Positions 14,908 through 64,000 of a stretch of DNA of 64,000 nt are shown piece by piece (positions within the stretch are counted from its first letter, which is position 1; the number at the start of each line of letters is the position of its first letter). Source of the stretch: Lentzea tibetensis (lineage in GTDB: Bacteria; Actinomycetota; Actinomycetes; Mycobacteriales; Pseudonocardiaceae); the NCBI RefSeq assembly GCF_007845675.1, contig NZ_VOBR01000006.1, forward strand, positions 248,001 through 312,000. The letters run 5' to 3'. The notes under the pieces were generated by a model. It worked only from the letters and a program-made list of their open reading frames with translations, was not told where the DNA came from and searched no databases. The translations under genes were made by a program, and so were the position numbers.

Positions 14908-15021
14908 CCACCCACTCCTCCCCGCCCGTGAACATCTTTGGTCGGGCGTCTGCCATGGACCTCAAGCCGACACACGAACGTGGATCGACTTCGGTTCAAA
15001 GATTTTCGGGGATACTACGGA

Positions 15022-21181: not shown

Positions 21182-21190
21182 TGCCAATGG

Positions 21191-21223: not shown

Positions 21224-21287
21224 TTCTTATCGGTTCTGGTGTGGACCGGCCTAGCGCCGCCGCAATTCCGGGCCACACCAGACCCGT

Positions 21288-23363: not shown

Positions 23364-23511
23364 AGGAGCCTCCCACTTTCGTCGGGGGATGGGTTGTTGC
23401 GGCGGCCTTGCGTTCGACTGGGAGCGGCGGGCCAGTCATCGGAGGAATGCTCACCTACCTGTTGACCGATCCGGTGATCAGGTGTAGGCATTCGACCGTT
23501 ACAGAAAAACC

Positions 23512-23523
23512 GTAAACGTTTTC
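23512..23523 (+). promoter_or_regulatory. LacI-type operator candidate before the ABC importer
   Basis: GTAAACGTTTTC contains the palindrome AAACGTTT (23514-23521) with the central CG typical of LacI/GalR operators. It is 36 bp upstream of the solute-binding protein start, and a LacI regulator closes the same gene cluster. Confidence 0.5.
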
Positions 23524-23558
23524 GAGCGCCAGGTCCAGAGTCAGTTAGGGAGCCCCAG

Positions 23559-27584: not shown

Positions 27585-27634
27585 CGCCGGACCCGTCATG
27601 ATTGTTGTTCCGGCTTGGTGAGGGTGAGGTTCAA

Positions 27635-28618
27635 GTGGCAGTCACGATCCGCGACGTGGCACGCAGGGCACACGTGTCGGTAGCCACGGTCTCCCGCGCG
27701 CTGACGTCCCCCGAACTGGTCAGGCCAGAGACCAGGTCACGGGTACTGGCTGCCGCTTCGGACCTCGGCTACCAGCCGAACAGAGCCGCCCGCGGCCTGA
27801 TCACCGGCAAGACGGGCAACATCGGAATCGTCGTGCCGGACCTGGACAACCCCTTCTTCACGGGAGTGCTGAAGGCCGTCCAGGCCCGCGCGATGCAGGC
27901 CGACTACGCCGTGTTCGTCGCCGACTCCGACGAGGACCCCGTCGCCGAGGCCAAGCTCGTGCACGCGATGGCCAAGCAGGTCGACGGCGTCGTGCTGTGT
28001 GCTCCCGGTCTCGAGGACTCGCAGGTCTACGAGGTGGCCGGGGCTACCTCTTTGGTTCTGTTGAACCGACGGCTGCCTGGCGTGCCCGCTGCACTGATGG
28101 ACTCCGCCGGTGGGATGCACGCCGTTGTCGACCATCTTGTGGCTTTGGGGCATCAGCGGATCGCGTATTTGAACGGGCCGCGCACCTCTTGGTCCAACCA
28201 GGAGCGTCGTCGGGGGCTCTTGTCCGCTGTTGCCCAGCACAAGGTCGACCTTGTGGATCTCGGGCCGTTCGCACCTCGGTACGAGGGTGGGTTGCAGGCC
28301 GCTGATCTGGCCGTTGCCGCTGACACCACCGCGATCATCGCTTACAACGACATCATGGCTCTCGGCGTGTTGGCTCGGTTGCGGGATCGTGGGATTTCTG
28401 TGCCTGGGGACGTGTCTGTCACCGGGTTCGACGACCTGACTTATGCCGCTCTTTGCTCGCCTGCGTTGACCACCGTTGCCATGCCTGTTGCCTCGGCTGG
28501 GCGTACCGCGGTCAACCTGCTTCTGGACTGGCTGGACTCCGACAACACCGACGTGCCTCACGTGGTGCTGGAGACGCAGCTCATCGTGCGGGGGACAACC
28601 ACTCCCCCGCGCCGCTAG
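27635..28618 (+). CDS. LacI-family regulator
   Basis: A 327-residue LacI/GalR regulator. The GTG at 27635 is preceded by GGTGAGG and begins just before the DNA-binding helix-turn-helix (VTIRDVARRAHVSVATVSRA, then LGYQPNRAARGL); an upstream TTG is less likely. The ligand-binding domain has NIGIVVPDLDNPFFTGVLKA, ALGHQRIAYLNGP, AIIAYNDIMALGVL and DVSVTGFDD, all regular. It probably controls the ABC importer and perhaps the divergent sugar dehydrogenase through the operator near 23512. Confidence 0.93.
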   Translation: MAVTIRDVARRAHVSVATVSRALTSPELVRPETRSRVLAAASDLGYQPNRAARGLITGKTGNIGIVVPDLDNPFFTGVLKAVQARAMQADYAVFVADSDEDPVAEAKLVHAMAKQVDGVVLCAPGLEDSQVYEVAGATSLVLLNRRLPGVPAALMDSAGGMHAVVDHLVALGHQRIAYLNGPRTSWSNQERRRGLLSAVAQHKVDLVDLGPFAPRYEGGLQAADLAVAADTTAIIAYNDIMALGVLARLRDRGISVPGDVSVTGFDDLTYAALCSPALTTVAMPVASAGRTAVNLLLDWLDSDNTDVPHVVLETQLIVRGTTTPPRR

Positions 28619-28861: not shown

Positions 28862-30295
28862 TCAGCGGGGGCGCGCCCTCAGGAACGCCCACACGAGCAC
28901 CGCGCACACCGCCAGAAGCGCCGCGCAGAGTGCGAAAGCCACGTGATACCCGTGCATCGTCGCCGCCTCCGGGCCGGACGAGGCCAGGTACGCGGCCACC
29001 GACGTGGTGAAGATCGTGTTGAGCAACGCGGTTCCCAGCGAACCGCCGATCTGCTGCGAGGTGTTCACCAGCGCGCTCGCGACGCCGGCGTCGGCGTGGT
29101 CGACACCGGACAAGGCGACGTCGTTCATCGGTGTGTACACCAAGCCCATGCCGATGCTCATCACCACGAACGCCGGTAGCACCAGGCCGAAGTACGACGA
29201 GTCCGCCTCGAGCAGGGTCAGCGAGAGCATCGCCGCCGCGGCGAGTGCCGCGCCCGTCGTCATCAGCGCCCGTGCCCCGAACCGCGGCAGCAGCCGCGCC
29301 GTGCACGTCGCGGTCACGACTATGCCGATGGACAGCGGCAAGTAGGCGATGCCTGCCTGCAACGCCGTGTACCCCAGCGTCTGCTGGAGGTAGAACGTCA
29401 TGAACAGGAACATGCCCATGGTGCCGACGCCGAGCAGAACCGAGGCCAGGTAGGCGATTCCGCGGGCGCGGTCGAGCACGACGCGCAGCGGCAGCAGCGG
29501 CGTGTGCGCCTTCGTCTCCACGAGGACGAACGCGATCAGCAGCACGAGCGCGAAGCCGATGACGCCCGATGTCCTGCTGGAGGCCCAGCCTTCGTTCGCC
29601 GCGGTGGTGAACCCGTAGACCAGAGCGATCAGGCCGCCGGTGCCCAGCAACGCGCCCGCGACGTCGTACCGCGCCCGGCCTTCCATCCTGCTCTCCCGCA
29701 TGGCAGGCAGCGCGAGGGCGAACGCGATCGCCGCCACCGGGACGTTGATGAACAGGCACCAGCGCCAGGTCGTGTACTCGGTGAGCACGCCGCCGACGAG
29801 CAGGCCGACCGCCGCGCCGCCGCCGGACACCGCGCCGAAGACGCCGAACGCCTTGGCGCGCTCCCGCGCTTCGGTGAAGGTGACCGTGATCAGCGAAAGC
29901 GCGGCGGGGGCGAGCAGTGCGCCGAACACGCCCTGCAATCCGCGGGCGGCGAACAGCATGCCGGCTCCCGTCGCCGCGCCGCACAACGCCGACGCGGCGG
30001 CGAAGCCGGCCAGCCCGACCAGGAACGTCCTCTTGCGACCCGCGTAGTCCGCGATGCGGCCGCCCAGCAGGAGCAGCCCGCCGAACGTGAGCGTGTACGC
30101 GGTGACCACCCACTGACGGTCCGCGTCGGAGATGTGCAACGCCTGCTGGGCGGACGGCAGCGCGATGTTGACGACGGTGGAGTCCAGCACCACGAGCAGT
30201 TGTGCGGTGACCACCACGGCCAGCAGCATCCAGCGGCGGGGATCCGGTGGTGCCGCGGACGCCTTCTCCGCGATGACGGTGCGGTATTCAGACAT
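28862..30295 (-). CDS. DHA2-type MFS drug exporter (EmrB/QacA-like)
   Basis: A 477-residue 14-helix antiporter. The ATG at 30295 is chosen because GAGGAGGG lies just upstream; an in-frame ATG at 30319 lacks a site. Signature motifs are LDSTVVNIALPSAQQAL in helix 1 and GGRIADYAGRKRTF in the loop between helices 2 and 3. These pumps expel drugs or endogenous antibiotics using the proton gradient. It follows the P450 by 30 bp on the same strand as the PKS genes and is the left boundary of the cluster, so it likely exports the polyketide and gives self-protection. Confidence 0.92.
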   Translation of the reverse strand: MSEYRTVIAEKASAAPPDPRRWMLLAVVVTAQLLVVLDSTVVNIALPSAQQALHISDADRQWVVTAYTLTFGGLLLLGGRIADYAGRKRTFLVGLAGFAAASALCGAATGAGMLFAARGLQGVFGALLAPAALSLITVTFTEARERAKAFGVFGAVSGGGAAVGLLVGGVLTEYTTWRWCLFINVPVAAIAFALALPAMRESRMEGRARYDVAGALLGTGGLIALVYGFTTAANEGWASSRTSGVIGFALVLLIAFVLVETKAHTPLLPLRVVLDRARGIAYLASVLLGVGTMGMFLFMTFYLQQTLGYTALQAGIAYLPLSIGIVVTATCTARLLPRFGARALMTTGAALAAAAMLSLTLLEADSSYFGLVLPAFVVMSIGMGLVYTPMNDVALSGVDHADAGVASALVNTSQQIGGSLGTALLNTIFTTSVAAYLASSGPEAATMHGYHVAFALCAALLAVCAVLVWAFLRARPR

Positions 30296-30325
30296 GACCC
30301 TCCTCTTAGGACGATTCAAGACCGC

Positions 30326-31534
30326 TCAGGACGACACGGCGAGGGTGAGCTTGTGCGCGTTGAGCATCTGGGAACTGCGGATGAACTGCGGCGGCTCGTC
30401 CGGGATGGTGGCGATCTCGGGGAACCGGTCGAACAGGATGTTCAGCGCGATGCGCCCCTCCAACCGGGCCAGGCCGGCCCCGATGCAGTAGTGGATCCCG
30501 CGCGAGAACGTCAGGTGCGGGTTCGGGTCGCGGCCGGGACGGAACTCGGCGGGCTCGTCGAAGACCCGCGGATCGCGGTTGGCGGCACCGATCCAGACCA
30601 TCACCAGCTGGTCGGCCGGGATCGTCACGCCGCCGACCTCCGCCTCGGCGGTGGTCACCCGCGTGGTCACGGCGAACGGTGGCAGACACCGCAGCGACTC
30701 CTCGATCACGTCCGGCAGGCGCGATCGGTCCGCGCGGACGCGGGCGAACTCGTCCGGATGCGCGTCCAGGCACAGGATCGTGTTGCCGAGCAGCATGGTG
30801 GTGGTCAGGTGCCCGGCCAGCAGCAGCACGTCGGCGAGCGTGGTGATCTCCTTGTCGCTGAGCCGTTCTCCTTCCACCTCGGCGTGCACGAGCCCGCTCA
30901 GCAGGTCGTCGCACGGGCGCCGGCGCCGGTCCTCGAGGTACTCGCTCAGGTACTCGCCGAACTCCTCGCGCTGCCGCATGGTCGCCGCGGTGGCCTCTTC
31001 CTGGCCCTCGAACCGGCCGGCCAGCGAGAAGTCCTCGGACGTGGTCGGGATCAGCGACTCCGCCCAGCGCCGGAACAGGTCGCGGTCGCTCGCGGGCACG
31101 CCGAGCAGCTCGGCGATCACGATGACCGGGAGCGGATGAGCGAGGGCGCTGACCAGTTCGAAGCGGTCGGTGGTGGCGGCGGCGTCCAACAGCTCGTGGG
31201 TCAGCGACGCGATCCTCGGCTCGAGATCGGCGAGGACCTTCGGCGTGAAGGCGTGGTTGACGAGCCTGCGCAGCCGGGTGTGCCGCGGCGGGTCGAGATA
31301 GAGGAGCTCGCCGGCCTGGGCCTCCTCCGGGTCCGCGCCGATCTCCGCGGCCATCAGCCGCATCAGGTTCGAGGAGAACAACCGCGGGTTGCTCAACACC
31401 CCGACCGCCTCCGGGTGGCCGTAGACGTTCCACATGCGACCCTCGGCGTTGTAGTCGACGATCTCGTCGGGAACCGCTCCGCGCAACCAGAACTGACGCT
31501 CGTCCACGCCCCACGCATCGAATTCGGTGATCAT
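30326..31534 (-). CDS. Cytochrome P450, tailoring enzyme
   Basis: A 402-residue soluble bacterial P450. The heme-binding motif is FSRGIHYCIG with the thiolate Cys350, the K-helix motif is E279-S-L-R282, and the I-helix reads LAGHLTTT (240-246), so Leu243 replaces the acidic residue usually seen before the conserved Thr pair. It lies between the AT-ER gene and the exporter in one transcription unit and probably hydroxylates or epoxidises the released polyketide. The I-helix change may alter proton delivery or the reaction type; this is an inference. Confidence 0.93.
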   Translation of the reverse strand: MITEFDAWGVDERQFWLRGAVPDEIVDYNAEGRMWNVYGHPEAVGVLSNPRLFSSNLMRLMAAEIGADPEEAQAGELLYLDPPRHTRLRRLVNHAFTPKVLADLEPRIASLTHELLDAAATTDRFELVSALAHPLPVIVIAELLGVPASDRDLFRRWAESLIPTTSEDFSLAGRFEGQEEATAATMRQREEFGEYLSEYLEDRRRRPCDDLLSGLVHAEVEGERLSDKEITTLADVLLLAGHLTTTMLLGNTILCLDAHPDEFARVRADRSRLPDVIEESLRCLPPFAVTTRVTTAEAEVGGVTIPADQLVMVWIGAANRDPRVFDEPAEFRPGRDPNPHLTFSRGIHYCIGAGLARLEGRIALNILFDRFPEIATIPDEPPQFIRSSQMLNAHKLTLAVSS

Positions 31535-31559
31535 GATATCCGTCCTTTCTGGACTTGGG

Positions 31560-33773
31560 TCATGCTGGCCGTTGGGTCGCGCCGCGCCAGAACGCGGTGA
31601 GATGCGACGCCGCGCCGTCGAGCAGCATCCGGCCGATCTCGTCGGCGTGCCGGTGCCGCCAGGACTCCTGCGGGGTGCCGCGCACCCACTGGTTGAAGGA
31701 ACCCAGCGCCGGTCCGGTGTGGACCTGGTAGTTGACCTTGTCGTCGGGCCGGCCTTCCAGCGCGATCCGCGCGCTGTACCCGAAGTAGCGCCGGAAGATC
31801 AGGGCCATCTTCTGCTTCGGCTGCCGCTCGGCGCGCTCGAGCAGCTCGTGACGGTTGGTCGCGCGCAGGTGCCGGACGACGTCGGCCCAGACCTCGTCGA
31901 GCGACTTGCGGAAGTACGTGCGCTCGAGCAACGCCCTGGTCTTCGCGGGCAGGTCGTCGATGCCGTCGTGGTGGGTGTAGAGCGAGTACAGCTTGTTCCC
32001 GCGCGTCGGGAAGAACACGCCCTTGCGCAGCACCTGGACCTGGCTGCCGAGCTCGAACATGTCACCCGCCGGCGCGTAGTCGGTGTCGTGCACGTCGATG
32101 TCCTGCAGCATGTCCTTGACCGCGTCGCTGGTCGCGGCCTCCACCGTGCACTGGTTGACCGAGCCGGTGACGACGTAGTCGGCGCCGAGCACGAACGCGG
32201 CCGCCACCGCGGCGGGCGTGCCGATCCCGCCGGCCAGGCCCAGGCAGATCGGCTCGTCGTACCCGTACTCCTCCTGTGCGCGCCGGCGCACTTCGAGCAT
32301 GGTGGGCAGCAGCGCGGTCGCGATGCCACCGTCGGTGTGCCCGCCCGAGTCCGCCTCGACGGTGATGTCGTGGCTCATCGGCACCCGCCGGGCGAGGTCG
32401 GCCTGCTCGGCGGTCAGCTCACCGTTCGCCCGCAGGCGGTCCAGCACCGAGTCGGGCGGGGGTGCCATGAACGTGGCCGCGACGTCGGGCCGGGACACCT
32501 TCGCCACGACGCGGTGGTCGCACACCGGCCTGCCACCGGGTCCCCGGCGCAGCCCCAGTGCGCGGTAGCGCACGAGCGCCGGGGTCACCTGGATGAACGC
32601 GGACGCTTCGACGAGCCGCACGCGGTGGCGCAGCAGCACGTCGACCATCGCGTCTTCCGTCGCGGGGTTGTCGTGGTCGGCCAAGAAGTTGACCCCGTAG
32701 GCGTGCTCATCGCCGAGTGCGCTCTGGATCTCCTTGATCCCGCGCTCGGTCTCCTCCGGCGCCAGGCCGGCGGTGCCGAGGAACCCGAGCATTCCCGCGC
32801 GTCCCAGCCTGGCGACCAGCTCGGGCGAGGCGATCCCGCGGTACATCCCGCCCGCGGCGTAGGCGTAGCGCAGGCGGTGGCGTTTCCGGAAGACCTCGCT
32901 GCCCAGGTCCCGGCCCCGGAGCCCGGACACCCGGTGCGTCGCGCGGGTCTGCTCGACGAGCTTCGTCAGCACCGCGCCGCCCAGTTCGACGAACTCGGTG
33001 ATGCCCTCGTCGAGCACGTGCCGCACGCTCTCGGTCCACCGCACCGGCCGCACGATCTGGTCGGTGAGCATCCCTGCCGTGGCGCCGGTCGGATAGGGGC
33101 GGGCGGTGCAGTTCGCGATGACCGGCACCAGCGGGGTGCCGAGGTCGAAGCCCTCGAGGAACCGGCGGAACTCCCGCTGTGCCGAGCGCATCAGCGAGGA
33201 GTGGAACCCGCCCGACACGCGCAGCCGCACCCAGCGGACGCCGCGCGCCTGCAGGAAGTCGCCCAGCTCGTCGATCGACTCGGCGTCACCGGAGACCACG
33301 CACTGCTCCGGCGAGTTGTCGTTGGCGACGACGAGCGTGCAGAACCGGCCTTCGTGCAGGAGTTCGGTGACCTGGTCGCGACCGAGACCGGTCACCGCGA
33401 TCATCCCGCCGCCATCGGCGCGGGCCATCAGCTCGCCGCGGCGCTGCACGAGGCGCAGCCCTGTCTCGAAGTCGAACGCGCCCGCCGCGTGCAGCGCGCA
33501 GTACTCGCCGAGGCTGTGCCCGGCGTAGTACGCCGCGTCCTCGCCACCGCGTTCCCGCCACTGCCGGTGGGCGAGCGCGCCGACCACGAACAGCGCCGGT
33601 TGGGTGAACTCCGTGCGGTTCAGTTCGCGCCGGGGGTCCTCGAGGCACAGTTCGCGGATCGAGTGGCCGAGCAGATCGGAGGCCTGCTCGGTCTGCTCGG
33701 GGAAGGCGTCGAACAGCTCGTGGCCCATGCCGCACGTCTGCGCCCCCTGGCCGGGAAAGATCACCGCTTTCAT
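31560..33773 (-). CDS. Trans-acting acyltransferase-enoylreductase (AT-ER) of the trans-AT PKS
   Basis: A 737-residue didomain protein whose ATG overlaps the stop of the terminal PKS gene. The N-terminal AT (about 1-285) has FPGQGAQ, the nucleophile Ser87 in GHSLGEY and the catalytic His in GGFHSS. The C-terminal ER (about 300-737) is of the PfaD flavin type, with GMLGFLGTAGLAPEE, VNFLADHDNP, ITVEADSGGHTDGG and LGLAGGIGTPAAVAAAFVLG. In trans-AT systems such proteins load malonyl units on every carrier domain and saturate selected double bonds. No module in the window has its own AT or ER, so this protein is required for chain extension. Confidence 0.95.
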   Translation of the reverse strand: MKAVIFPGQGAQTCGMGHELFDAFPEQTEQASDLLGHSIRELCLEDPRRELNRTEFTQPALFVVGALAHRQWRERGGEDAAYYAGHSLGEYCALHAAGAFDFETGLRLVQRRGELMARADGGGMIAVTGLGRDQVTELLHEGRFCTLVVANDNSPEQCVVSGDAESIDELGDFLQARGVRWVRLRVSGGFHSSLMRSAQREFRRFLEGFDLGTPLVPVIANCTARPYPTGATAGMLTDQIVRPVRWTESVRHVLDEGITEFVELGGAVLTKLVEQTRATHRVSGLRGRDLGSEVFRKRHRLRYAYAAGGMYRGIASPELVARLGRAGMLGFLGTAGLAPEETERGIKEIQSALGDEHAYGVNFLADHDNPATEDAMVDVLLRHRVRLVEASAFIQVTPALVRYRALGLRRGPGGRPVCDHRVVAKVSRPDVAATFMAPPPDSVLDRLRANGELTAEQADLARRVPMSHDITVEADSGGHTDGGIATALLPTMLEVRRRAQEEYGYDEPICLGLAGGIGTPAAVAAAFVLGADYVVTGSVNQCTVEAATSDAVKDMLQDIDVHDTDYAPAGDMFELGSQVQVLRKGVFFPTRGNKLYSLYTHHDGIDDLPAKTRALLERTYFRKSLDEVWADVVRHLRATNRHELLERAERQPKQKMALIFRRYFGYSARIALEGRPDDKVNYQVHTGPALGSFNQWVRGTPQESWRHRHADEIGRMLLDGAASHLTAFWRGATQRPA

Positions 33774-58400: not shown

Positions 58401-61400
58401 TGCGGTGCGCCAGGTCGGAGCTCGCAGGCCAGTAGCTCTGCCGCTCGTACGGATAGGTCGGCAACGGCACGACGCGCCGCACGGCCGCAGGGAAGGCGCC
58501 GGTGAGGTCCACCGCGTCCCCGCGAACGAACGCCGAGGCCACTTCGGCGGCGGTACCGGGCCGTGCGGTGACCTCCGGCCGCGTGTCGGCGGGCACCTCG
58601 CCGACCAGCACCTCGTCCGCGGCACCGGACGGCCAGGCACGCAGGTGGTCGGCGAGCGCAGCGGTTCCCGCGGCGACGACGGCGAGCCGGTGCGGCATGG
58701 CGGCGCGCCCGGCGGCGAGGCTGTAGGCCACTTCCGCGGCGGAGAGCTCCGGCTCGCGGTCGAGGTGCGCGACGAGCCGTTCGGCCACGGCCCTGAGCGC
58801 TTCCGGTGACCGCGCGGAGAGCAGGAACGCTTGCGAGCCGGGCACTTCACCGGCGGGCGGCCGCTGGTACTCCTCCAGCACGACGTGCGCGTTGGTTCCG
58901 CTGGCGCCGAAGGAGCTGACGGCGGCGCGCCGCGGACCTTCCTCGGGCGCGGGCCAGTCGGTCGTCTCCGTCGGCACGACGAACGGGCTGCCGTCCAGCG
59001 GGATCCGCTCGTTCGCGGCGGTGAAGTGCAGTGAGGCCGGCACCTTGCGGCGGCGCAGCGCGAGGACCGCTTTCACCACTCCGGCCACCCCCGCGGCGAA
59101 CTGGGTGTGCCCGATGTTGGTCTTGATCGAACCGAGCGCGACGCTGCCCCGCCGCGCCCCGGCGAACACGCGGAACAGCGCGCGGAACTCGATCGGGTCG
59201 CCCAGTTGGGTCCCGGTGCCGTGCGCCTCCACGAGCTGGATGCCGCCGGTGCCGATGCCGGCGTGCACCTCGCGCAGCAGCCTTTCCTGGGAGGCCGCGC
59301 TCGGCGCGGTGATGCCGTTCGTGGTGCCGTCCTGGTTGACGCCCGAGGCCCGCACGACGGCGTGCACGTGGTCGCCGTCCCGTTCCGCGTCGGCGAGCCG
59401 CTTGAGCACGAGCGCGCCCGCACCCTCGCCCGGCACGAACCCGTCGGCGCCCGCGTCGAAGCTGCGGCAACGGCCTGAGGCCGACAGCATGCCCGCCCGC
59501 GCGGCGGAGGCGTAGAGCCGTGGTGTGCTTTGGACGAACACGCCACCGGCGATCGCCAGGTCGGCGGTGCCCGCCCGAAGATCCCGGCAGGCCAGGTCGA
59601 TCGCGACGAGCGAGCTGGAGCACGAGGTGTCGACGGTGAGCGCGGGGCCGGTGAGGTCGAGCAGGTAGGCGATCCGCGACGCGACGACCGAGCCCATGGT
59701 CCCCCACAGCGCCTGCGGGGGTGCCGCCGCGTCCAGGTGGTCCCCGTAGTCGCCGGCGTAGCAGCCGACGTACACGCCGACGCGGTCGCCGCGGTGGCGC
59801 GGCCCGGTGTACCCGGCGTCCTCCAGCGCGTTCCAGCACTGTTCGACGAAGATCCGCTGCTGCGGGTCCATCGCGGTCGCCTCGACGCCGGAGATCCCGA
59901 AGAACGCCGGGTCGAACCGGTCGATGCCGCGCAGGAAGCTGCCGGTGCGGCAGGTGATCTCCGGTGCGAGCGGCCAGCGCGTGACCGGCTCGACCAGGTC
60001 GGTGCCCGCCGTGAGGTGGGTCCACAGCGCCTCCGGGTCCTCCGCGTCGCCGTACCGCGCGGCGAGGCCGACGATCGCGATCGCGTCGTCGCCTGCGTCG
60101 CGCGGAGCGGCCGTGGTGGGTCCGGTGGCGGCGCCCGTTCCGGCCAGGAACGCGCCGAGCCGGTCGAGTGTGCCGTGGTCGAAGAGGTCGGTGGTGTCGA
60201 GGGCGGTGCCGAGCGCTTCGTTGAGCCGGTGCACGAGGCTCACGCCCAGGATGGAATCGAGCCCGTAGTCGGCGAACGGCCGGTGCCGCTCGATGTCGTC
60301 GACCGGCGTCTGCAGGATGTCCGCGAGCTCGGCCAGCAGAACACCTTCGGCGTCGACCTCGCCGCCGCGCCGTGCGACGGGCGCCTCCGCGCTCTCGTGC
60401 TCCGCGGGCTCGAACCAGAACTCGGGACCGCTGAAGGGATAACCGGGCAGGTGCACCCGGCGCCGGGCACCGTCCACCTGGGACCAGTCGAGCGGCATTC
60501 CCTTGGTCCAGAACGCGGCCAGCTCGCTCCACGCACCGGTCGCGACCCACTGCTCGACGAGCGCCCGCAGCTCGGCCTTGCCCGCCAGCTCGGCGAGGGT
60601 TTCCTTGCTCACCTGGACCCGGCCGCGGCACCACGGCCCGTCGGCGCCCTGATCGTCCAGGAACGCGCGGAGCTGTTCCTGCCACTCCTGCGCGCTTCGC
60701 GCGAGGAAGCACAGCCGTTCGTCCATCGCTTCGCGGCCGGTCCGCAACGTCGCCGCGACGGCCGTGAGGTCTGGGGCGTCCTGCCCGTCGAGCCATGCGA
60801 CGAGCCCGGCGGCGCGGGCGCGCAGATCCTCCTCGGTCCGCGCGGACAACGGCAGCAGCACCGGGTTGCGCGGCGGGACGGCCTCCACCGCGGCCCGCTG
60901 GTGTTCGGCGACGATCACGTGTGCGTTCGCGCCTCCGGCGCCGAACGAGGAGATCCCGCCGATCCGGGGTCCGCCGGACGGACGCGGCCACGGGCGGCCT
61001 TCCCGGCACAGGGTGAACGGGGTCGCGGCGAAGTCGATGTCCGGGTTGGCCGGGTCGGCCTGCAGGGTCGGCGCGAGCTCGCCGTGTTCCAGCTGCAGCA
61101 CCACCTTGGTCAGCCCGGCGATGCCCGCCGCCGCCTCCAGGTGGCCGATGTTGGACTTGACCGAGCCGAGCGCGCAGGTGCCCGGTCCCGGCGCGTCCGG
61201 CGCGAACGCCTGGGTCAGGCCGTCGACCTCGATCGGGTCGCCGAGGCGGGTGCCGGTGCCGTGCGCCTCGACGTAGCCGACGTCGGCCGCGTCCAGCCCG
61301 GCCCGCTCCAGCGCCTCGCGGACGACCGCTGCCTGGGCACGCGGGTTCGGCACGGTGTAGCCGTTGGTGCGGCCGCCGTGGTTGACGGCGGACCCGAGGA

Positions 61401-63735
61401 TCACCGCGTGGATCGGGTCCCCGTCGGCCTCCGCCGCGGCGAGCGGCTTGAGCAGGACCGCGCCGACTCCCTCACCGGGGACGAACCCGTCGCCGTCGGC
61501 GCCGAAGCTGCGGCAACGACCGTCGGCGGCGAGCATCCGGGCCCGGCACAGCTCGACGTAGGTCGAGGGGTGCAGGTACAGGTTCACCCCACCGGCGATG
61601 GCGAGGTCGCACGCGCCGTGACGCAGGTGCTCGCACGCTTCGTGGATCGCGGTCAGCGACGCCGAGCACATGGTGTCCACCGGCATGCTCGGGCCACGCA
61701 GGTCCAGCAGGTAGGAGACGCGGTTCGCGAGGGAGGCGAACGACGTCCGCGGCGCACGCCGCGGACCGCTCACCGCCGGTGGCCGGTTGCGGTCGAACCC
61801 GGTCTTGGTCACCCCGGCGAAGACGCCGACCCTGCCCTGGTGCTGCTCGGCGAGCCTGGCCCGCGTGTATCCGGCGTCTTCGAGCGCGCACCACACGGTT
61901 TCGAGGAACAGCCGTTCCTGCGGATCGATGTCGGCCACGTCGCGCGGCGCGATGCCGAAGAACGCCGCGTCGAACCGGGCGAAGCCGTCGAGGAACCCGC
62001 CCCACTTGCTGTAGCTGGCGCCCGTGTCCACCGCGCGCTGCTGATCGGGTTCGTAGAAGCCGTCCAGCGACCACCGCTGCTCGGGAACCTCCCGCACGCT
62101 GTCGCGGCCGGCGCGCAGGTTGTCCCAGAACGCCTCCAGCGTCGGCGCGTCGGGATAGCGGCCGCTGATCCCGATGACGGCGATGGGCTCACCGGCCGGC
62201 GCCGGGCGCCGAGTGCTCGCCTCGGCCGCCGGGGCGGGGGCGGGGGCGGCGGACACCGGTGCTGGCGCGTCGTCGAGCCAGCGGGCGCAGCCGTCGGGGT
62301 GCCGCTCGGTCAGGTGGACGGCCAGTTCGCCGAGGGTCGGGTACTGGTAGAGCACGGTCTTGGGCAACGCGCCGAACCACCGCGCGAACCGCTGGTTCAG
62401 CCGGGTGACCGTGAGCGAGTCGATGCCGTAGCCGTCCAGCGGTGCCGCCGCGTCGAGGCGGTCGGCGTCGAGCCGCATCACCTCGGCGACGAGCTCCTTC
62501 AGCCGCATGACGACCTGGGTGCGGAGGTCCTCCGCATGAGCCTGCTTCTCGGTCATGTCGTTCCCTTCCCCCGTGATGACGACGTGGGCGGCACCGAGCG
62601 CGATCGCCGCGTGCAGGGCGTTCAGGGCGGTCTCGGTCGGAAGTGGCGGGCCGAACCGGTCGGCGAGCGCGGGCAGCTCCTCCTCGGGCACCCGCATGCC
62701 GCCGTCGCGCCACAGCGGCCAGCCCAGCGAGACGCTCACGCCGTGCCTTTCGCCGCGGGCGGCGAGCTCGGCGCGGCCGTTGAGGTGGGCGTCGAGGAAC
62801 CCGTTGGCCGCGGCGTAACCCGACTGGCCCGCGTTGCCCAGCGTCCCGGCCGCCGCGGAGAACGCGACGAAGAAGTCGAGCGGCACGTCGCGGCTCGCCT
62901 CGTCGAGGTTGACCAGGCCCGCGACCTTCGGCGCGAGCACCCGGCGGAAGTCCTGACAGGACGCGTGGATGAGGTAGTCGTCGCGCAGGACGCCCGCCGC
63001 GTGCACGATGCCGTCGAGCCGCCCGTGCGTGCGGACGACGTCCGCGACCAGCTCGCGCACCGCCGCCGCGTCGGTGACGTCCACGCTGCGGTACTCGCCG
63101 GGCCCGCCGGCCCGCGGGGCCCGCCCGCACCGCACCACGACCGCGTCCGGGGCGTGCCGGGCGACGTCCTCGGCGAGGAGCCTGCCGATGCCGCCACCAC
63201 CACCGCTGATCAGGTAGACGCCGCCGGGCTTCCAGGCGCACGCGGCCGAGGCGGGTGCGGCGGGCTCCCAGTCCGGCACCTCGAGACCGGCCGAGGTGTG
63301 GCGGACGTGCTCCCCGCTCACGTCGGCGTTCAACGCGGCGGTGAGCTCCGCGGTCGACGGGTCGTCCACGAACTCGACGAGCCGGACGCGCACACCGGGG
63401 TCCTCCTGAGCGGCCGTGCGCAGCAACCCGAGCACGCCGGGGAACACCGAGCCGGCGCGACAGGCGACCTGGACGGTGCACGGACGGCCGTCGTTCACGG
63501 CGAGCAACCGCTTCATCTCGCCGAACAGCCGGATCGCCGCCCGCTCGTAGGCGGTGGCCGGGTCGTCATCACCGCTGTGCACCTCGGCGACGGAGACGCC
63601 GGGCAGCCGGTCGCGGACGACTGCGGCGGCGGTGGACAGGTCGCACACCACGATCAGCCGCCTGCCCTCGGCCGGGAGTGCGGCCGATGCCGGTTCCCGG
63701 TGCCAGACGGGCACGCGCACGATGCTGCGGGTCAT
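40696..63735 (-). CDS. Giant trans-AT polyketide synthase, about 7,679 residues, six KS domains
   Basis: One uninterrupted frame of 23,040 bp. The ATG at 63735 follows GGAAGGGAG and is 31 bp after the upstream PKS stop. Domain order with approximate residues: KR 1-390 (GGGGGIG, Tyr307), ACP 398-482 (Ser440); KS1 515-944 (Cys690), ACP 1130-1200 (Ser1161); KS2 1215-1625 (Cys1372), DH 1785-2040 (His1802), KR 2045-2460, MT 2490-2860, ACP 2920-2990; KS3 3030-3460 (Cys3206), KR 3670-4090, MT 4170-4465, ACP 4490-4570; KS4 4600-5010 (Cys4759); KS5 5165-5575 (Cys5323), DH 5740-5995, repeat linker 6000-6105, KR 6120-6530, ACP 6550-6625, ACP 6670-6735; KS6 6755-7190 (Cys6928), DH 7365-7640, docking tail. 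No AT or ER. All KS Cys-His-His and DH His-Asp residues are present. It extends and reduces the polyketide using malonyl units supplied by the separate AT. Confidence 0.95.
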   Translation of the reverse strand: MTRSIVRVPVWHREPASAALPAEGRRLIVVCDLSTAAAVVRDRLPGVSVAEVHSGDDDPATAYERAAIRLFGEMKRLLAVNDGRPCTVQVACRAGSVFPGVLGLLRTAAQEDPGVRVRLVEFVDDPSTAELTAALNADVSGEHVRHTSAGLEVPDWEPAAPASAACAWKPGGVYLISGGGGGIGRLLAEDVARHAPDAVVVRCGRAPRAGGPGEYRSVDVTDAAAVRELVADVVRTHGRLDGIVHAAGVLRDDYLIHASCQDFRRVLAPKVAGLVNLDEASRDVPLDFFVAFSAAAGTLGNAGQSGYAAANGFLDAHLNGRAELAARGERHGVSVSLGWPLWRDGGMRVPEEELPALADRFGPPLPTETALNALHAAIALGAAHVVITGEGNDMTEKQAHAEDLRTQVVMRLKELVAEVMRLDADRLDAAAPLDGYGIDSLTVTRLNQRFARWFGALPKTVLYQYPTLGELAVHLTERHPDGCARWLDDAPAPVSAAPAPAPAAEASTRRPAPAGEPIAVIGISGRYPDAPTLEAFWDNLRAGRDSVREVPEQRWSLDGFYEPDQQRAVDTGASYSKWGGFLDGFARFDAAFFGIAPRDVADIDPQERLFLETVWCALEDAGYTRARLAEQHQGRVGVFAGVTKTGFDRNRPPAVSGPRRAPRTSFASLANRVSYLLDLRGPSMPVDTMCSASLTAIHEACEHLRHGACDLAIAGGVNLYLHPSTYVELCRARMLAADGRCRSFGADGDGFVPGEGVGAVLLKPLAAAEADGDPIHAVILGSAVNHGGRTNGYTVPNPRAQAAVVREALERAGLDAADVGYVEAHGTGTRLGDPIEVDGLTQAFAPDAPGPGTCALGSVKSNIGHLEAAAGIAGLTKVVLQLEHGELAPTLQADPANPDIDFAATPFTLCREGRPWPRPSGGPRIGGISSFGAGGANAHVIVAEHQRAAVEAVPPRNPVLLPLSARTEEDLRARAAGLVAWLDGQDAPDLTAVAATLRTGREAMDERLCFLARSAQEWQEQLRAFLDDQGADGPWCRGRVQVSKETLAELAGKAELRALVEQWVATGAWSELAAFWTKGMPLDWSQVDGARRRVHLPGYPFSGPEFWFEPAEHESAEAPVARRGGEVDAEGVLLAELADILQTPVDDIERHRPFADYGLDSILGVSLVHRLNEALGTALDTTDLFDHGTLDRLGAFLAGTGAATGPTTAAPRDAGDDAIAIVGLAARYGDAEDPEALWTHLTAGTDLVEPVTRWPLAPEITCRTGSFLRGIDRFDPAFFGISGVEATAMDPQQRIFVEQCWNALEDAGYTGPRHRGDRVGVYVGCYAGDYGDHLDAAAPPQALWGTMGSVVASRIAYLLDLTGPALTVDTSCSSSLVAIDLACRDLRAGTADLAIAGGVFVQSTPRLYASAARAGMLSASGRCRSFDAGADGFVPGEGAGALVLKRLADAERDGDHVHAVVRASGVNQDGTTNGITAPSAASQERLLREVHAGIGTGGIQLVEAHGTGTQLGDPIEFRALFRVFAGARRGSVALGSIKTNIGHTQFAAGVAGVVKAVLALRRRKVPASLHFTAANERIPLDGSPFVVPTETTDWPAPEEGPRRAAVSSFGASGTNAHVVLEEYQRPPAGEVPGSQAFLLSARSPEALRAVAERLVAHLDREPELSAAEVAYSLAAGRAAMPHRLAVVAAGTAALADHLRAWPSGAADEVLVGEVPADTRPEVTARPGTAAEVASAFVRGDAVDLTGAFPAAVRRVVPLPTYPYERQSYWPASSDLAHRTRPEVTGSAYRVRLTGEEFFLADHHVDGRPVLPAVLSLEFARRAVTSGAFTPTGLRDLVWATPFPVGAEGADLSVERDGEAFRVCRDGTEVHAQGRYAEAGPATTVPLEAVRERCRARTLTAEQCRAALDAVGIVHGDRLRALDGLAVGHGEVLARLVLPADAHDPDLAAHPALLDSAVQAVVGLFGDAAGTLAEREGRPALPFAVDEADLLTPVGETMWAHVRRATSGADVTTVDIDVCDDAGRVAVRLRGLAFRHLTNEPAVRTALLAPVWDALPGDVECERATATRLVLAGGAAGDREGFPGAAVLDDDQAADMPADVDHIVWLASEAAERDGALSVFRWVKALLASGADGREIGFTAVTRQACRAPGDRLVDATHAGVHGLLGSVAKEYPHWQVRVVDIAADEAVPWDAVLNPPAVARGGVVALRRGEWFRPRLLEVADAEPIASPHAPGGVVVAIGGAGGIGTVWTEHLLRRHGTQVVWIGRRPLDAQIAANQDRLAAFGPKPDYVRADASDVDDLRRACAEVVRRHGPVHGVLHTAIVLGDQSVARMDEERFHATYAAKADVAVNLAEVFAGQPLEFVAFFSSMQAFFTAPGQANYAAGCTFADAFADHLADRLGCPVKVMNWGYWGGVGVVAEDGYRRRMARLGLGSIEPDEGTAAFDRLLTSPHDRLALLKAADARSIATFYEGSVLTTLPGGGSSPVAALHDARPDRRAEIERVRTAADGHGRSMEDALVRITWALLRQLGLFTPGRAGTVADWLAAGGIEPRYERWLGHTVAVFTRRGLLRGTADGRCEAVDVSPVDLEAAWRRWDLDREPWLESDGKRPQAVLVDTTVRALTDILTGHRPATDVMFPKSSLELVEAVYRNNPVADYFNDVLADTLVEHVRARVADDPDARLRILEIGAGTGGTSAVLFRRLAPWREHIETYCYTDISKAFLLHARRAYGDIAPYLDPRILDVEKPLDGQQVEAGGFDVAIATNVLHATRNIRTTLTNTKAALRANGMLLLNELSDNVFFSHLTFGLLDGWWRYDDPAVRIPGSPGLTPDNWLRVLGETGFRPAFVAAEGADDLGQQVFVAESDGVVRQPVPAGGPAFPPGTDDEPAAVPAPAPAPVPAPVSAPETVVASADREAELLQRARDHFRALVADVLQLPVSSVRADVTFDRYGIDSILVVQLTDAVRKVLGNVGSTLFFEVRTIDGLARHFARTQPDALAALVGMTGPEPASAPEPAPEPAAGPLVADVPVRRDEEMPIAVIGTSGRYPGARNLAEFWANLMAGTDCVTEVPADRWDHDRHFDPRRGIPGKTYAKWGGFIDGVAEFDPLFFGISPAAASTTDPQERLFLQSAYETLQDAGYTRDSLRAAAMARVGEDAGDIGVFAGAMYTEYQLYGAEQPVVVPGSLASIANRVSYFFDASGPSVAVDTMCASSLSAIHLACAALRSGECGVALAGGVNLSLHPSKYLMIGQAQFASSDGRCRSFGAGGDGYVPGEGVGTVLLRPLADAEADGDRILGVIRGSAVNHGGHTHGFTVPNPKAQAAVIRQVYRRSGVDPRRIGYVEAHGTGTPLGDPIEVAGLTAAFAEFTEDRGFCAIGSVKSAIGHLEAAAGIAGLSKVLLQMRHGTFTPSLHAAQVNPEIDFDGTPFVLQREAAPWSRTGGAPRTAVVSAFGAGGSNSHLLVEEYIVPELPERPVAPQAVVLSAVDEQRLRESAGRLRDELRGGSWRDTDLADIAYTLQVGREPMAARFATVAGDLAALAAALDACVRGTELPPDTYVGGAGPSALPAAIAADDDFQETLVRWVARGKLAPLAEAWVGGTAVDWARLHTDGPRPRRVGLPTYPFARDRYWYTDVLPEQAEPVVQPPEPVAVPAAVAGDCAASPAPATVAGDALPAGDLTVIPVWEAERPGRASPAGRVLAIGLDDTDIAALRDTDAEVSTWDGEAAQQSPGETDRVVLRFPTPSGEPRAVVHRAVRVLKAVQDRYGDREVELTLVTRNAFGHGTTDPAQASLHGLVGGLAKEQPHWRVRAVDLTGDEPFDPAEVFALPADRRTHPVVRTGGQWLRRRLVPVEQARPETSAFRRGGVYVLIGGAGDLGVVLSEHLARTYDARIVWVGRRAEDDEIRARSAGIDGTAPVYLRADAADAAALRRVREEVVARYGRIDGVVHLAMTFSHTPLAALREHELEATLRSKVDSCGHLADAFAGLDLDFVLLVSSLVSFIRNANQAHYAAACAYVDAAAAGLRDALGCRVKTVNWGYWGNVTDDVLEGVAAQGLAPIDPATAMTALEALLAGPLDQIGFLRLGRPLPVEGVLIGQTAAVQPVAAAAASSPVEPPLPEPLAAHQAGPVPDEIAVALCRWVAAELREAGFSDPSDIGTDDRFAAWLPPMLRALAEHGLVDGAGRWGAPAPDAAACRAEWARSARHWADANPDLRTPLDLLGRTVPALPAVLRGAVLATDVLFPNGSFELVEGVYRDNRVADHFNSVLAEHVAAFLAARRAAEPAAPLRVLEVGAGTGGTTRVVLDRLARAGLEVAEYCFTDVSRAFLHRAEDAFGADLTYRVYDAAEPPHGQGLPIGAFDVVIAANVLHTTPNVRATLRGVKGLLRGNGLLALNEISGFYLVNHLTFGLLDGWWAHSDPELRVPGSPALAPAAWRAVLEQEGFTAVAHAAAEAEPLGQQVVLAHSDGVVRGLDMAAEPAPPVAEPESESEPEPVPVASVAAVVLEKLAAALRMTEDAIDPARAFADYGLDSIVGAGFVQQLNEALGIDLLTTVIFDHRSVDLLAAHVASIHQPTLPGATAPAATGSAELVREVALSPPAGAPHEPIAIVGISGRFAQSPDLDALWRHLADGDDLVGQIERWDTSGPEWTDVACRSGSFLDGIDEFDARFFRMSGREAACTDPQQRLFLEEAWTALENAGYAGAALDGKRAGVYVGCTGGDYTAWFTERPPAQAAWGNHPAIVPARVAYHLNLHGPAIAVDTACSSSLVAIHLACQGLRSGETELAVAGGVAVQTTPRTYLTAGRAGMLSPTGRCHTFGAAADGFVPGEGVGVVVLKRLADALADGDHVHAVIRGCAVNQDGATNGITAPSAASQERLIREVHDRFGIDPAEIGMLEAHGTGTKLGDPIETEALVRAFGAAEGSRGCALGSVKTNIGHTMSAAGVAGVLKIVLAMRHRALPPSPRHDVTNPAIRLDGSPFRINTELRPWEPNSQGKLVAATSSFGFSGTNAHLVVEEPPAVGARHHDGRELLFVLSAPRPEPLRQLVADLAGHLSATPDAVLGDISYVLAHGRGHFAHRVAFAAADRETLVSRLESWLADGTAHPAADAELERIRTRWSGGAELAADGLFTGLDVRRTPLPTYPFQRRGAWVGGASPASPLPQAAPAREPIAVVGVAARFAGSPDAESLWAHLAAGDDLVGEVTRWDLTGKLGPKAGRQFGSFLDDPARFDALFFSVSGTEAVHADPQQRVFLEECWHALEDAGYAGERLTDRACGVYVGAYPGDYHQLIGGERPPQTMWGNMASVIASRISYLLDLSGPAVAVDSACSSSLVAIHMACDSLRLGTVSMALAGGVFVQATPRLYEYSATAKMLSPNGRCRTFDASADGMVPGEGAGVLVLKRLSDAVRDGDHVYGVISGSGVNQDGATNGITAPSAEAQEDLVRQVHRDAGVRPGGAQLIEAHGTGTPLGDPVEFGALVKAFAGAPEGSCALGSIKTNIGHTQFTAGVAGTIKALLALHHRRLPPSLHFTRPNPAIALEGSPFYVPVECLDWREPESGPRRAGVSSFGASGTNAHLVVEEAPASSGPAHPERAEWLMVLSAQDERALRTHVERVLAHVEAREDLDLGDAAHTMATGRRHENLRWACVAANRTVWLEAMRTWLRDGHAESVVTGAVPDEPEPAAVPDGLALTEVARRYVRGEVTSLGRLFADDGFRVVPLPGYPFGGERYWITTPAVAPLIVHKRPGAERCHAADLTGREFFLDHHRVSGVPVLPGVAYLELARAAAEAEGFPATGVALRNVVWTRPARITGPTAAEVTLEPQDRGAFTYRISTSTGGTHGQGQVEPSVPAAPPRLDITALRARCTRRSLSRAECYALYEGTAMGLGPAMRGVEQLDIGDGLIVARLRRPGGDDLTLHPAMLDSALQATLGLALAEGADEVSAALPFALTEVRVHAATPDAGWAVIRPSGNDRPGVVRRLDIDLCDEAGEVCVRLLGFTFRALPTTDDQPVPDQPVPDEAVSGQTVPDQAVSGQTVPDQAATGQTVPDQAVSGQTVPDQAVSGQTVPDQAATGQTVPDQAATGQTVPDQAATGQTVPDQAATGQPVPDEAVAGRTATGQAAGVGSGALVLARPSWHPATNGLGAERFVRHEVLLAGLATVDPGDLAARTGVTCVELPSGEDVATDFTRQSEQLLTHLQKAVTASREGRVLLQVVVPDGAEHRPHTGLAGLLRTARLEHPKLVTQLVVVSSGADADSVATRLSQEAGNADEVMTREVAGRREVARWTEIEAPAVQPWRAGGVYLITGGAGGLGRVFAGEIAARVAGPVLVLCGRSPEEPAQLLDELRAAGATAGYRRLDVADRPAVERCVAEVVAEHGRIDGVLHSAGVLRDGYLAKKDTADLREVLAAKVTGFVNLDEATAGENLEFFIGFSSLSASGNPGQADYAAANAFLDGYAARRAASVAAGERHGRTLSVGWPLWADGGMRVDAATERSVRDALGILPMPAAAGVEALYRACGSGEPHVLVMYGDPDRIQQTLLAAPDPVTEPEVDVVSEPRALVGLLADRVSRLLDVPADEIEGAVDLSEYGFDSISLVDFVGVLNDEFGLNLVPTLLIEHPTLDSLAAHLLDDHRDVFEPAPEPAPVTAPEPAPEPAVEPTSEPTGGPSSRAALLAELVELTASVLRLPVERIEGGRELSRYGVDSLSLTELVTAVNERFGVALDPTVLFEYPTLNGLAEFLLEHHSNQVTPEPVVAEPTPLPAGPEPIAVIGMSGRLPMAEDIAEFWRNLSEGRDCIGEIPADRWDWRECFGDPIKEPNTSNVKWGGFIEGVGDFDPLFFDISPREAELMDPQQRLLLLYAWKALEDAGYAAESVAGSDMAVIVGTASTGYPTMVAKHSPVVEPYDATGAAPCLGPNRMSFFLGVHGPSEPVDTACSSALIATHRAVGVLQDGTSDMAIVGGINTVISKDLHISMSKAGMLSVDGRSKTFSDRADGYARGEGVGMLVLKRLSAAERDGDHIYGLIRGTAENHGGRANSLTAPNPKAQAAVIRAAHRKAGIDPRTVGYVEAHGTGTKLGDPVEINGLKEAFRDLYADAGAEVTGAHCGIGSVKTNIGHLEVAAGVAGMIKVLQQMKHRTLVPSLHCDEVNPYVKLDGSPFYLVRERRPWVAPVDGSGAELPRRAGVSSFAFGGANAHVVLEEYVPKPVADAPPARPLPVVLSASHPEVLRTLAERWVEALRDGTHRDGDLPSIAYTSQVGRTAMTERLGCVAGSVDELAAGLESWLRGTPDDTVVAGRVARDDVPAAPAGTDATDAVCAWVRGAEIDWSRWHTGSPRRIPLPTYPFRLKRYWLDTSGPVAGAGVAALHPLVRTNTSDLTGQRYTSHLTGREFFLADHRVRGVPVLPGAAYLEMARAAAALAAGGDRSWSLADATWERPLLVEQATDVHIGVSAEAPDTLSYQVFTTGADGERVVHGHGVLTEETGSEPLPRVDVRRLVEECDGPVFDAEECYERLGGLGLGYGPAMRAVERLHCGSGTSRLAVARLRLPSTAAADASFVLHPSLLDAAFQSTVGLFAGAGDDAVPAALPHSVAEVRVLRPLPASAWVVVRFGADGPVAAEQALDIDVCDEEGEICVRLRGFRVRSLDRAPTGPAAEPADPDEDEFLFQLIEAAGDGSISADDFERSLT
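43530..48250 (-). other. Module E (KS5-DH-repeat-KR-ACP-ACP)
   Basis: KS5 has DSACSSSL, DH has DHHRVSGVPVLPG and MLDSALQ, KR has ITGGAGGLG, DYAAANAFLDG and VLRDGY. Two ACPs follow in tandem (EYGFDSIS, RYGVDSLS), joined by a Pro/Glu-rich linker. The DH and KR are joined by the 10-residue repeat array. Confidence 0.88.
45421..45735 (-). repeat. 30-bp tandem repeat (minisatellite) inside the giant PKS gene
   Basis: Eight near-identical 30-bp units run without gaps from 45451 to 45690, flanked by degenerate units on both sides. Two variants alternate irregularly: they encode PDQAATGQTV and PDQAVSGQTV on the minus strand. The array stays in frame, so copy-number changes only lengthen the Gln/Pro/Thr-rich linker between the DH and KR of module E. 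Confidence 0.95.
48290..49940 (-). other. Orphan KS4 without carrier protein
   Basis: KS4 (DTACSSSL, LEAHGTGTKLGDP, NIGHTMSAAG) and its linker (PLPTYPFQRRGAW) run straight into KS5, with about 30 residues between linker and next KS. No ACP, KR or DH is present. The KS triad is intact. Confidence 0.88.
50030..54648 (-). other. Module D (KS3-KR-MT-ACP)
   Basis: KS3 has DTMCASSL and the KR IGGAGDLG with HYAAACAYVDA. The KR lacks the Asp seen in the other KRs (MTFSHTPL), suggesting A-type stereochemistry. The MT has LEVGAGTGGT and the ACP DYGLDSIV. No DH lies between KS and KR, so an alpha-methyl beta-hydroxy unit is predicted. Confidence 0.85.
54770..60095 (-). other. Module C (KS2-DH-KR-MT-ACP)
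   Basis: KS2 has DTSCSSSL. The DH has DHHVDGRPVLP and LLDSAVQ, the KR has IGGAGGIG and NYAAGCTF, the MT has LEIGAGTGGT and the ACP RYGIDSIL. This set predicts an alpha-methyl, alpha-beta unsaturated unit, unless the trans ER reduces it. Confidence 0.88.
60130..62192 (-). other. Module B (KS1-ACP only)
   Basis: KS1 (DTMCSASL, EAHGTGTRLGDP, NIGHLEAAAG) is followed by its linker (HLPGYPF) and directly by an ACP (DYGLDSIL). No processing domain is present, so it would leave a beta-keto group, be served in trans, or only pass the chain on. Confidence 0.85.
62290..63735 (-). other. Module A (KR-ACP), completes a KS on the previous protein
   Basis: The giant PKS begins with KR rather than KS. The KR has YLISGGGGGIGRLLAEDVA, the catalytic Tyr in SGYAAANGFLDA and VLRDDY, an Asp position associated with B-type KRs. 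The ACP serine lies in GYGIDSL. The preceding protein ends in a post-KS linker, so the module is split between KS and KR. Confidence 0.85.
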
Positions 63736-63766
63736 GGGACGACTCCCTTCCGGGGACGGTGCGGAC

Positions 63767-64000
63767 TCAGACGCCGTTGAGCGCATCAGGGCTCTCCTGG
63801 TTGGCGAGGACCGCTTCGAGCAGCGCGGCGCGGGCGTCGACGTCGAACGAGACGGGTTCGGGGCTACCGGCCGACTCGGGCACCCAGTAGCGCTCGCGTG
63901 CGAACGGGTAGGTGGGCAACGGCACGACACGGCCTCCGCCCGCCGGGTGCAGGTGCTCCCAGACGACCGCGCGGCCTTCGCACCACGAGGCCGTGACGAG
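63767..64000 (-). CDS. C-terminal end of an upstream polyketide synthase (5' part outside window)
   Basis: The minus strand reads open from the right edge to a TGA at 63767-63769, 77 residues. The segment VVPLPTYPFARERYW is the linker that follows a KS domain in these enzymes, and the protein then ends with a short helical tail (ARAALLEAVLANQESPDALN), a probable docking element. The KS therefore sits on this protein and its KR and ACP begin the giant PKS, 31 bp downstream. The cluster continues beyond the window. Confidence 0.85.
   Translation of the reverse strand, partial: LVTASWCEGRAVVWEHLHPAGGGRVVPLPTYPFARERYWVPESAGSPEPVSFDVDARAALLEAVLANQESPDALNGV

Follow-up and report, generated by a model that had tools for sequence, protein, structure and literature searches.

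We analysed a stretch of 64,000 nucleotides of the Lentzea tibetensis genome (the window), which corresponds to bases 248001–312000 of contig NZ_VOBR01000006.1 (genome of 9.36 Mb, 105 contigs), and also read bases 312001–350000 of the same contig, beyond the window end at 64000. The subject of this report is a polyketide synthase (PKS) gene cluster of ~49 kb that extends from 28.9 to 77.7 kb in window-based coordinates, so that ~14 kb of it lies past the window. The in-window portion runs from the ketoreductase (KR) of module 3 through to an exporter gene, all on the minus strand, and adjacent genes overlap or lie within ~30 bases of each other (start codons as read here). The window edge falls within the N-terminal end of the protein PKS-F; upstream of it are the ketosynthases (KS) KS1–KS3 and the loading genes, to ~77.65 kb. 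The line holds ten KS in total, on three PKS proteins. The features inside the window, with dehydratase (DH), methyltransferase (MT), acyl carrier protein (ACP), thioesterase (TE), acyltransferase (AT) and enoylreductase (ER) domains abbreviated, are the following:

40696..64000, minus strand: PKS-F, with KR-ACP of module 3, modules 4–8 and KS-DH of module 9; the frame extends to 64029, 29 bases outside the window, and its start codon is not fixed
61051..62190, minus strand: KS4 of module 4 (KS-ACP); matches the solved chain 4zdn with 894 bits (main stretch)
55098..57603, minus strand: KR-MT block of module 5, to which the module-10 block is related within the line; approximate boundaries
50365..54639, minus strand: module 6, KS-KR-MT and then ACP; KS6 matches the solved chain 4tkt with 977 bits
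48844..49938, minus strand: KS7, with its catalytic Cys-His-His; no ACP lies between it and KS8
43597..48246, minus strand: module 8, KS8-DH-KR-ACP8a-ACP8b; phosphopantetheine serine in both ACPs (GFDS, GVDS)
40813..43464, minus strand: module 9, KS9-DH; its ACP is at the start of PKS-G
33770..40699, minus strand: PKS-G, with ACP9, module 10 (KS-DH-KR-MT-ACP) and TE; start codon as read here
39002..40153, minus strand: KS10, Cys-His-His kept; best match Streptomyces sioyaensis KS10 (75%)
35029..37549, minus strand: KR-MT block of module 10, of module-5 type; boundaries approximate, from sliding identity
36365-36943, minus strand: KR of module 10
35072-35674, minus strand: MT of module 10
33839..34660, minus strand: thioesterase of PKS-G (Pfam TE match)
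31560..33773, minus strand: trans-acting AT-ER protein (FabD + PfaD); start codon as read here
30326..31534, minus strand: cytochrome P450, CYP107-like
28862..30319, minus strand: major facilitator superfamily (MFS) exporter of the EmrB/DHA2 type, last cluster gene

Domains were counted by Pfam and the counts were repeated with hidden Markov models built from the line itself. The initial annotation of this DNA had listed seven KS, five KR, four DH, three MT, eight ACP and one TE on two proteins, and all these counts were reproduced. KS4–KS10 lie on PKS-F and PKS-G, the KRs belong to modules 3, 5, 6, 8 and 10, the DHs to modules 5, 8, 9 and 10, the MTs to modules 5, 6 and 10, and the ACPs are 3, 4, 5, 6, 8a, 8b, 9 and 10. 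The Pfam E-values were ≤9e-76 for KS, ≤5e-35 for KR, ≤5e-20 for DH, 2e-16 to 4e-15 for MT and 3e-22 for TE; those of the ACPs, some of which were cut by slice edges, ranged from 2e-26 to 7.5e-5. We observed no match to a Pfam acyltransferase family inside PKS-F or PKS-G, and an AT inside the modules was the observation named beforehand as contradicting the annotation. As modules without AT are accompanied by discrete AT proteins in the cluster, the earlier view of a trans-AT PKS in an actinomycete host, of which the window holds the 3′ half, followed on the same strand by AT-ER, P450 and exporter genes, stands. Its placement of about three α-methyl groups near the carboxyl end of the product does not agree with MTs in modules 5, 6 and 10 of 10.

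Extension past position 64000, which the initial annotation had proposed, yielded 14 kb with three more KS and the loading genes, and its description of the cluster as unassigned failed with the reading of this 5′ half; an unassigned scaffold was then dropped. The first PKS protein (3081 aa) has the order KS1-DH-KR-ACP, KS2-B-ACP, KS3. Directly upstream of it are the genes for an asparagine-synthase-like amidotransferase (AsnB), a small discrete ACP, a didomain AT-TE protein and a regulator of the SARP type. Two modules are divided between proteins: in module 3, KS3 closes the first protein and KR-ACP opens the second, and in module 9, KS-DH is on PKS-F and ACP on PKS-G. In the stretch L011, two overlapping frames, 14102-15115 (minus strand) and 13877-15088 (plus strand), lie between the two SARP-type regulators, and neither has a Pfam match.

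According to two published reports, making a glutarimide polyketide takes an AT gene, an ACP gene and a gene for a homologue of asparagine synthetase, together with the block KS-DH-KR-ACP-KS-B-ACP (PMC10574677, PMC7756379). A further report states, in the part available, that five modules are common to the glutarimide family and that lactimidomycin and iso-migrastatin share further modules (PMC4853412). Both the three genes and the seven-domain block, in the published order, are present here. The pathway can be assigned because the combination of AsnB, ACP, AT and KS-DH-KR-ACP-KS-B-ACP is the published glutarimide PKS signature. Where the initial annotation saw no known pathway with this domain order, the 5′ half is that of a glutarimide PKS and the module order matches, apart from two differences, that of an iso-migrastatin-type line. 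Judged from genes and domains, the locus is most likely a ten-module glutarimide-type trans-AT PKS cluster of the iso-migrastatin/lactimidomycin kind.

The B domain of module 2 is one point at which this assignment could be questioned, since its Pfam RhiE_B match is below the cut-off (20.4 of 27 bits). AsnB-like proteins serve other amidations too, and a glutarimide-free polyketide, in which the AsnB-like gene serves solely to make a terminal amide, could be considered. We regard this as very improbable, as the complete published block is present in order, the KS of module 2 has its best match in KS2 of the other ten-module lines (81–92%), and the discrete ACP and AT adjoin asnB. Module 2 can also be aligned with the solved RhiE, at 620 bits and reaching into the B domain.

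To place the cluster among its relatives, genome contigs were scanned by AsnB alignment, which gave 265 relatives, of which the best 80 were kept. Among these 80, Saccharothrix coeruleofusca and Amycolatopsis rifamycinica come first (87%), followed at 74–76% by Streptomyces acidicola, S. sioyaensis, S. nanshensis, S. chattanoogensis and a Nocardiopsis; beyond them are many at about 50–57%, with a tail to 30%. At 1e-150, AsnB was found in 2 of 25 genomes of the genus, the window genome included, and in 11 of 391 genomes of the family. Five of the 11 belong to the branch of the window (the window genome, G431, G559, G577 and G582), two to the other ten-module branch (G776 and G778), and four are more distant (54–57%); G777, the only one of these four that was read, has five KS in the stretch. 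The AsnB of G559 sits at the same place as in G396, the genome to which the A. rifamycinica locus belongs; G559 and its genus mates G577 and G582 are hence taken to be Amycolatopsis. Matches across the phylum were not accepted as glutarimide evidence: at 1e-60 there are matches in 73 of 396 genomes, but the listed identities outside the own cluster are 29–45%. Streptomyces himastatinicus and S. klenkii were also rejected as relatives, as the stretches read around their AT-ER genes contain other PKS genes and gave no match to AsnB.

The ten-module relatives fall into two branches. In branch A all ten KS were read in five lines: the window, G431 (same genus), A. rifamycinica (two contigs), G582 and G577. 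Saccharothrix coeruleofusca is placed there by AsnB, its loading genes and KS1–KS3 being the part read. In branch B all ten KS were read in S. sioyaensis, the Nocardiopsis (two contigs), G776 and G778, and a part of the line in S. chattanoogensis, S. acidicola and S. nanshensis. For each of KS1–KS10 of the window, the KS of the same number scored best in every one of the four ten-KS lines examined, with identities of 82–91% (G431), 84–92% (A. rifamycinica), 73–83% (S. sioyaensis) and 67–81% (Nocardiopsis). The window shares ten colinear orthologous KSs, an AT-ER and a TE with S. sioyaensis, the line read here as reference for the iso-migrastatin (mgs) and lactimidomycin (ltm) type.

The link to migrastatin comes from solved structures. 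KS3 of S. sioyaensis matches the chain 4qyr, deposited as ‘AT-less polyketide synthase’, with 1311 bits over 600 residues, and its KS6 matches 4tkt, of the same title, with 1297 bits over 600 residues; KS3 of the window matches 4qyr with 916 bits. The chain 7zma tops the structure matches of the window KSs, with a score that sums several stretches of one longer protein. The chains 4qyr, 4zdn and 4tkt are presumably KSs of the iso-migrastatin synthase of Streptomyces platensis; PDB codes cited in papers gave nothing relevant. On the basis of these presumed identities, branch B would be the migrastatin type and the branch of the window its sister. Iso-migrastatin-like clusters are mentioned in Lentzea, at the level of antiSMASH, in parts of two publications (PMC9120177, PMC11092160), whereas one further Lentzea paper has no such term. 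We found no published description of the branch-A module-10 block, which may be described in the primary mgs/ltm papers.

The two branches differ first around KS7. We observed that KS7 and KS8 are separated by 192–200 residues, with no ACP, in 5/5 branch-A lines, and by 333–401 residues, with ACP7, in 5/5 branch-B lines, counting S. chattanoogensis. Both branches have two ACPs in module 8. The serine of ACP8a is kept in 5/5 branch-A lines (in G582 and G577 it was read from the sequences, the motif call there being a neighbouring string) and is lost in 5/5 branch-B lines, being replaced by P, R, R, L and P in S. sioyaensis, G776, G778, Nocardiopsis and S. chattanoogensis, respectively. Branch A keeps ACP8a without ACP7 and branch B keeps ACP7 without the ACP8a serine; thus each branch has two working ACPs for KS7 and KS8. 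The sequences show that one carrier protein next to KS7/KS8 has been lost reciprocally, a different one in each branch.

If KS7 were skipped or non-elongating, the glutarimide line would make a chain one C2 unit shorter than the migrastatin type. The lack of an ACP after KS7 in all five ten-KS branch-A lines is in keeping with this, and there is a precedent in secimide, which is one C2 unit shorter than its PKS predicts, as stated in a part of the source (PMC7930024). However, KS7 keeps Cys-His-His, and a non-elongating KS judged by motifs was not supported. KS7 is also as conserved as the other KSs (89% to both G431 and A. rifamycinica), its ratio of nonsynonymous to synonymous rates (dN/dS) is 0.16–0.20 in three comparisons, and the second working ACP of module 8 is kept only in the branch that lacks ACP7. 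A shortened chain hence appears unlikely. We infer instead that KS7 would extend on ACP8a and KS8 on ACP8b, so that ten elongations still occur.

The second difference lies in the last module. In the branch-B lines fetched, module 7 has its own ACP and the last module is KS-DH-KR-ACP-TE without MT; the window has neither arrangement. The KS-DH and ACP-TE parts of its module 10 track module 10 of S. sioyaensis (37–83% per 60-column window). In residues ~1112–1486 (KR region) this identity drops to 21–37%, and in residues ~1526–1926 (MT region) nothing alignable is present in S. sioyaensis module 10. The same segment, ~1112–1926 of the module-10 frame, is 37–80% identical to the window's own module 5. 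The module-10 KR is 70% identical to the module-5 KR and 34–46% to the other KRs of the window, and the module-10 MT (MT10) is 75% identical to the MT of module 5 (MT5) and 48% to that of module 6 (MT6).

A tree of 57 KRs extends this to both branches. The module-10 KRs of 5/5 branch-A lines group with module-5 KRs (support 98/96), and those of 4/4 branch-B lines group with module-8 KRs (94/98). Simple orthology of all nine module-10 KRs was rejected (cost of 207 log units, p 5e-6), with the grouping named after seeing the tree. The branch-A module-10 KRs form a group (91/83) that stands beside a group of all module-5 KRs, from both branches (95/92), and their grouping with branch-A module-5 KRs alone was not rejected (p 0.31). 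The MT tree, from which the broken MT10 pieces of G431 were dropped by the length filter while other G431 rows were kept, leaves the MT10 of the window unplaced among the module-5 and module-10 types. These KR and MT results are compatible with either direction, KR-MT gained in branch A or a module-8-type KR gained in branch B, and with more than one timing of the exchange. Misassembly is unlikely to be behind the KR-MT mosaic or the missing ACP7, because four further genomes, of which two are single-contig, show the same two features.

MT10 is absent from 7/7 branch-B lines whose module 10 was read and present in 5/5 branch-A ten-KS lines, in one of which (G431) it is broken. Its S-adenosylmethionine motif is kept in the window and A. 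rifamycinica, and it is full-length in G582 and G577. The dN/dS of MT10 was 0.33 for the window vs G582, 0.42 for the window vs A. rifamycinica and 0.43 for G582 vs A. rifamycinica; the copy in G431 is cut and degenerate, with a dN/dS of 0.62 over 105 codons.

Apart from the weak RhiE_B match and the presumed structure identities given above, several observations weigh against the preferred reading of the locus. The broken MT10 is found in G431, a genome of the same genus. MT10 evolves faster than MT5 (0.15 and 0.19 for the window vs G582 and A. rifamycinica, respectively) and about like MT6 (0.28 and 0.37). The module-10 DH is poorly conserved, at 44–49% to the best DH of each of four lines. 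Gene order after PKS-F varies among the members; the AT-ER of G431, for example, sits between the second and third PKS genes. No P450 or MFS gene was found in the G431 stretch read, and, with the broken MT10, this means that these features are not constant in branch A. In addition, a KR is missing from module 9 and any reductive domain from module 7, so the reductions there must come from elsewhere, as in branch B.

From the MT10 data it could be argued that the KR-MT block of module 10 is partly idle, with MT10 inactive and the product a plain migrastatin/lactimidomycin-type compound. Its loss is tolerated in G431, and its dN/dS exceeds that of MT5. Against this, full-length MT10 is kept in the window and in three Amycolatopsis-genus genomes, and its dN/dS stays well below 1. 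We consider an idle block rather unlikely, though less so than a skipped KS7, and prefer a functional MT10.

Among the genes behind PKS-G, the AT-ER protein (TIGR02814 PfaD, 624 bits; TIGR00128 FabD, 277 bits) is 80% identical to that of A. rifamycinica and 66% to that of S. sioyaensis. Three Amycolatopsis-genus clusters have two P450s each, one of which is 84–86% identical to the P450 of the window; the identity of the latter to the P450s beside S. sioyaensis and G776 is 34–36%, so the oxidation may differ too. The MFS exporter is also present in the G582 and G577 clusters, and was not found in the stretches read of G431 (the contig ends shortly after) or A. rifamycinica (the stretch ends).

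From this gene content, the following pathway can be proposed. The AT-TE and AT-ER proteins would load malonyl units, and the discrete ACP and the AsnB-like amidotransferase would make malonamyl-ACP. Modules 1–2 (KS-DH-KR-ACP-KS-B-ACP) would build the glutarimide ring via vinylogous malonyl addition, modules 3–10 would add eight further C2 units, and the in-line TE would release the chain, probably as a macrolactone. The P450 would then oxidise the product and the MFS protein would export it. With carbons numbered on the migrastatin/lactimidomycin skeleton, module 4 would supply C-14 and act on C-15 (ketone), module 5 would supply C-12 and C-13 (alkene, methyl), module 6 C-10 and C-11 (methyl, and hydroxyl for lactonisation) and module 10 C-2 and C-3.

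An MT of the module-5 type is published as methylating two intermediates in succession (modules 3 and 4 as numbered there; PMC7756379). As an MT of this type serves two intermediates, methyls at C-14, C-12 and C-10 are expected, as in the known compounds, and MT10 would add an extra methyl at C-2. The predicted product is thus a migrastatin/lactimidomycin-type macrolide with methyls at C-14, C-12, C-10 and C-2. By analogy with the known glutarimides, it probably inhibits eukaryotic translation. It is conceivable, though we would not call it probable, that the locus represents a second branch of migrastatin-type lines, seen in Pseudonocardiaceae, in which the KR-MT block was exchanged, a carrier was traded and chain length stayed unchanged, and in which MT10, as a relative of the double-acting module-5 MT, may methylate both C-4 and C-2 to give an ‘over-methylated’ lactimidomycin. 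If this is true, branch A would offer a ready-made natural model of the points at which trans-AT modules can be cut.

Compared with the mgs and ltm lines, as read via S. sioyaensis, the window likewise has three PKS proteins with ten colinear, orthologous KSs, a division of modules 3 and 9 between proteins, an AT-ER and a TE. It differs in KS7 without ACP, a working ACP8a, the module-5-type KR-MT in module 10 and a P450 that is 34–36% identical to those beside S. sioyaensis and G776. With the five-module glutarimide core (cycloheximide, 9-methylstreptimidone) it shares the loading genes and modules 1–5, as far as the available part of the source describes them (PMC4853412). A plasmid stretch of Streptomyces sp. 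NBC_01450, cut after the fifth KS module, has the same domain order, with a B domain missed by a one-sequence B model; unlike it, the window has five more modules, and only KS1–KS5 matched (62–68% identical). The gladiofungin/gladiostatin line of Burkholderia gladioli has, in the parts of the reports seen, the same loading genes and seven-domain block (PMC10574677, PMC7756379), whereas its later modules differ and an AfsA-like release domain is in place of TE. The branching module RhiE of rhizoxin shares the KS-B architecture, but the branch of the glutarimide line closes as an imide with the starter amide.

Glutarimide macrolides are described as translation inhibitors and anticancer leads in parts of two reports (PMC7930024, PMC7756379), and branch A predicts analogues altered at the macrolactone end. 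The five vs five lines form an aligned natural experiment on where a KR-MT block is exchangeable between DH and ACP, and on how a KS copes without its own ACP.

Glutarimide-type PKS starts were also observed on linear plasmids of 1.56–2.35 Mb of Streptomyces sp. NBC_01450, NBC_01483 and NBC_01237 (L034, L035 and L036). In Cognatishimia, an alphaproteobacterium (L065), asnB adjoins the seven-domain glutarimide block, and in a gammaproteobacterial metagenome-assembled genome (L063) asnB occurs with a different second module, KS-DH-MT-ACP. A migrastatin-matching mass, dereplicated by formula only, is mentioned for cultures of a Rhodococcus sp., both alone and together with Actinokineospora (PMC7918646).

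Past the exporter the window continues with a LacI/sugar ABC transporter group, at which, near 28.8 kb, the cluster boundary is taken to lie. This sugar-type group (18570-28618) comprises a solute-binding protein, an ATPase, two permeases and a LacI regulator; a gene of the DHDPS family is close by, and the opposite strand encodes a GSDH/F5-8 type C protein. Elsewhere in the genome, a contig of 117294 bases (C35) holds 19 of the 49 PF00109 matches of the genome in frames of up to 8883 aa, i.e. a second, giant PKS cluster.

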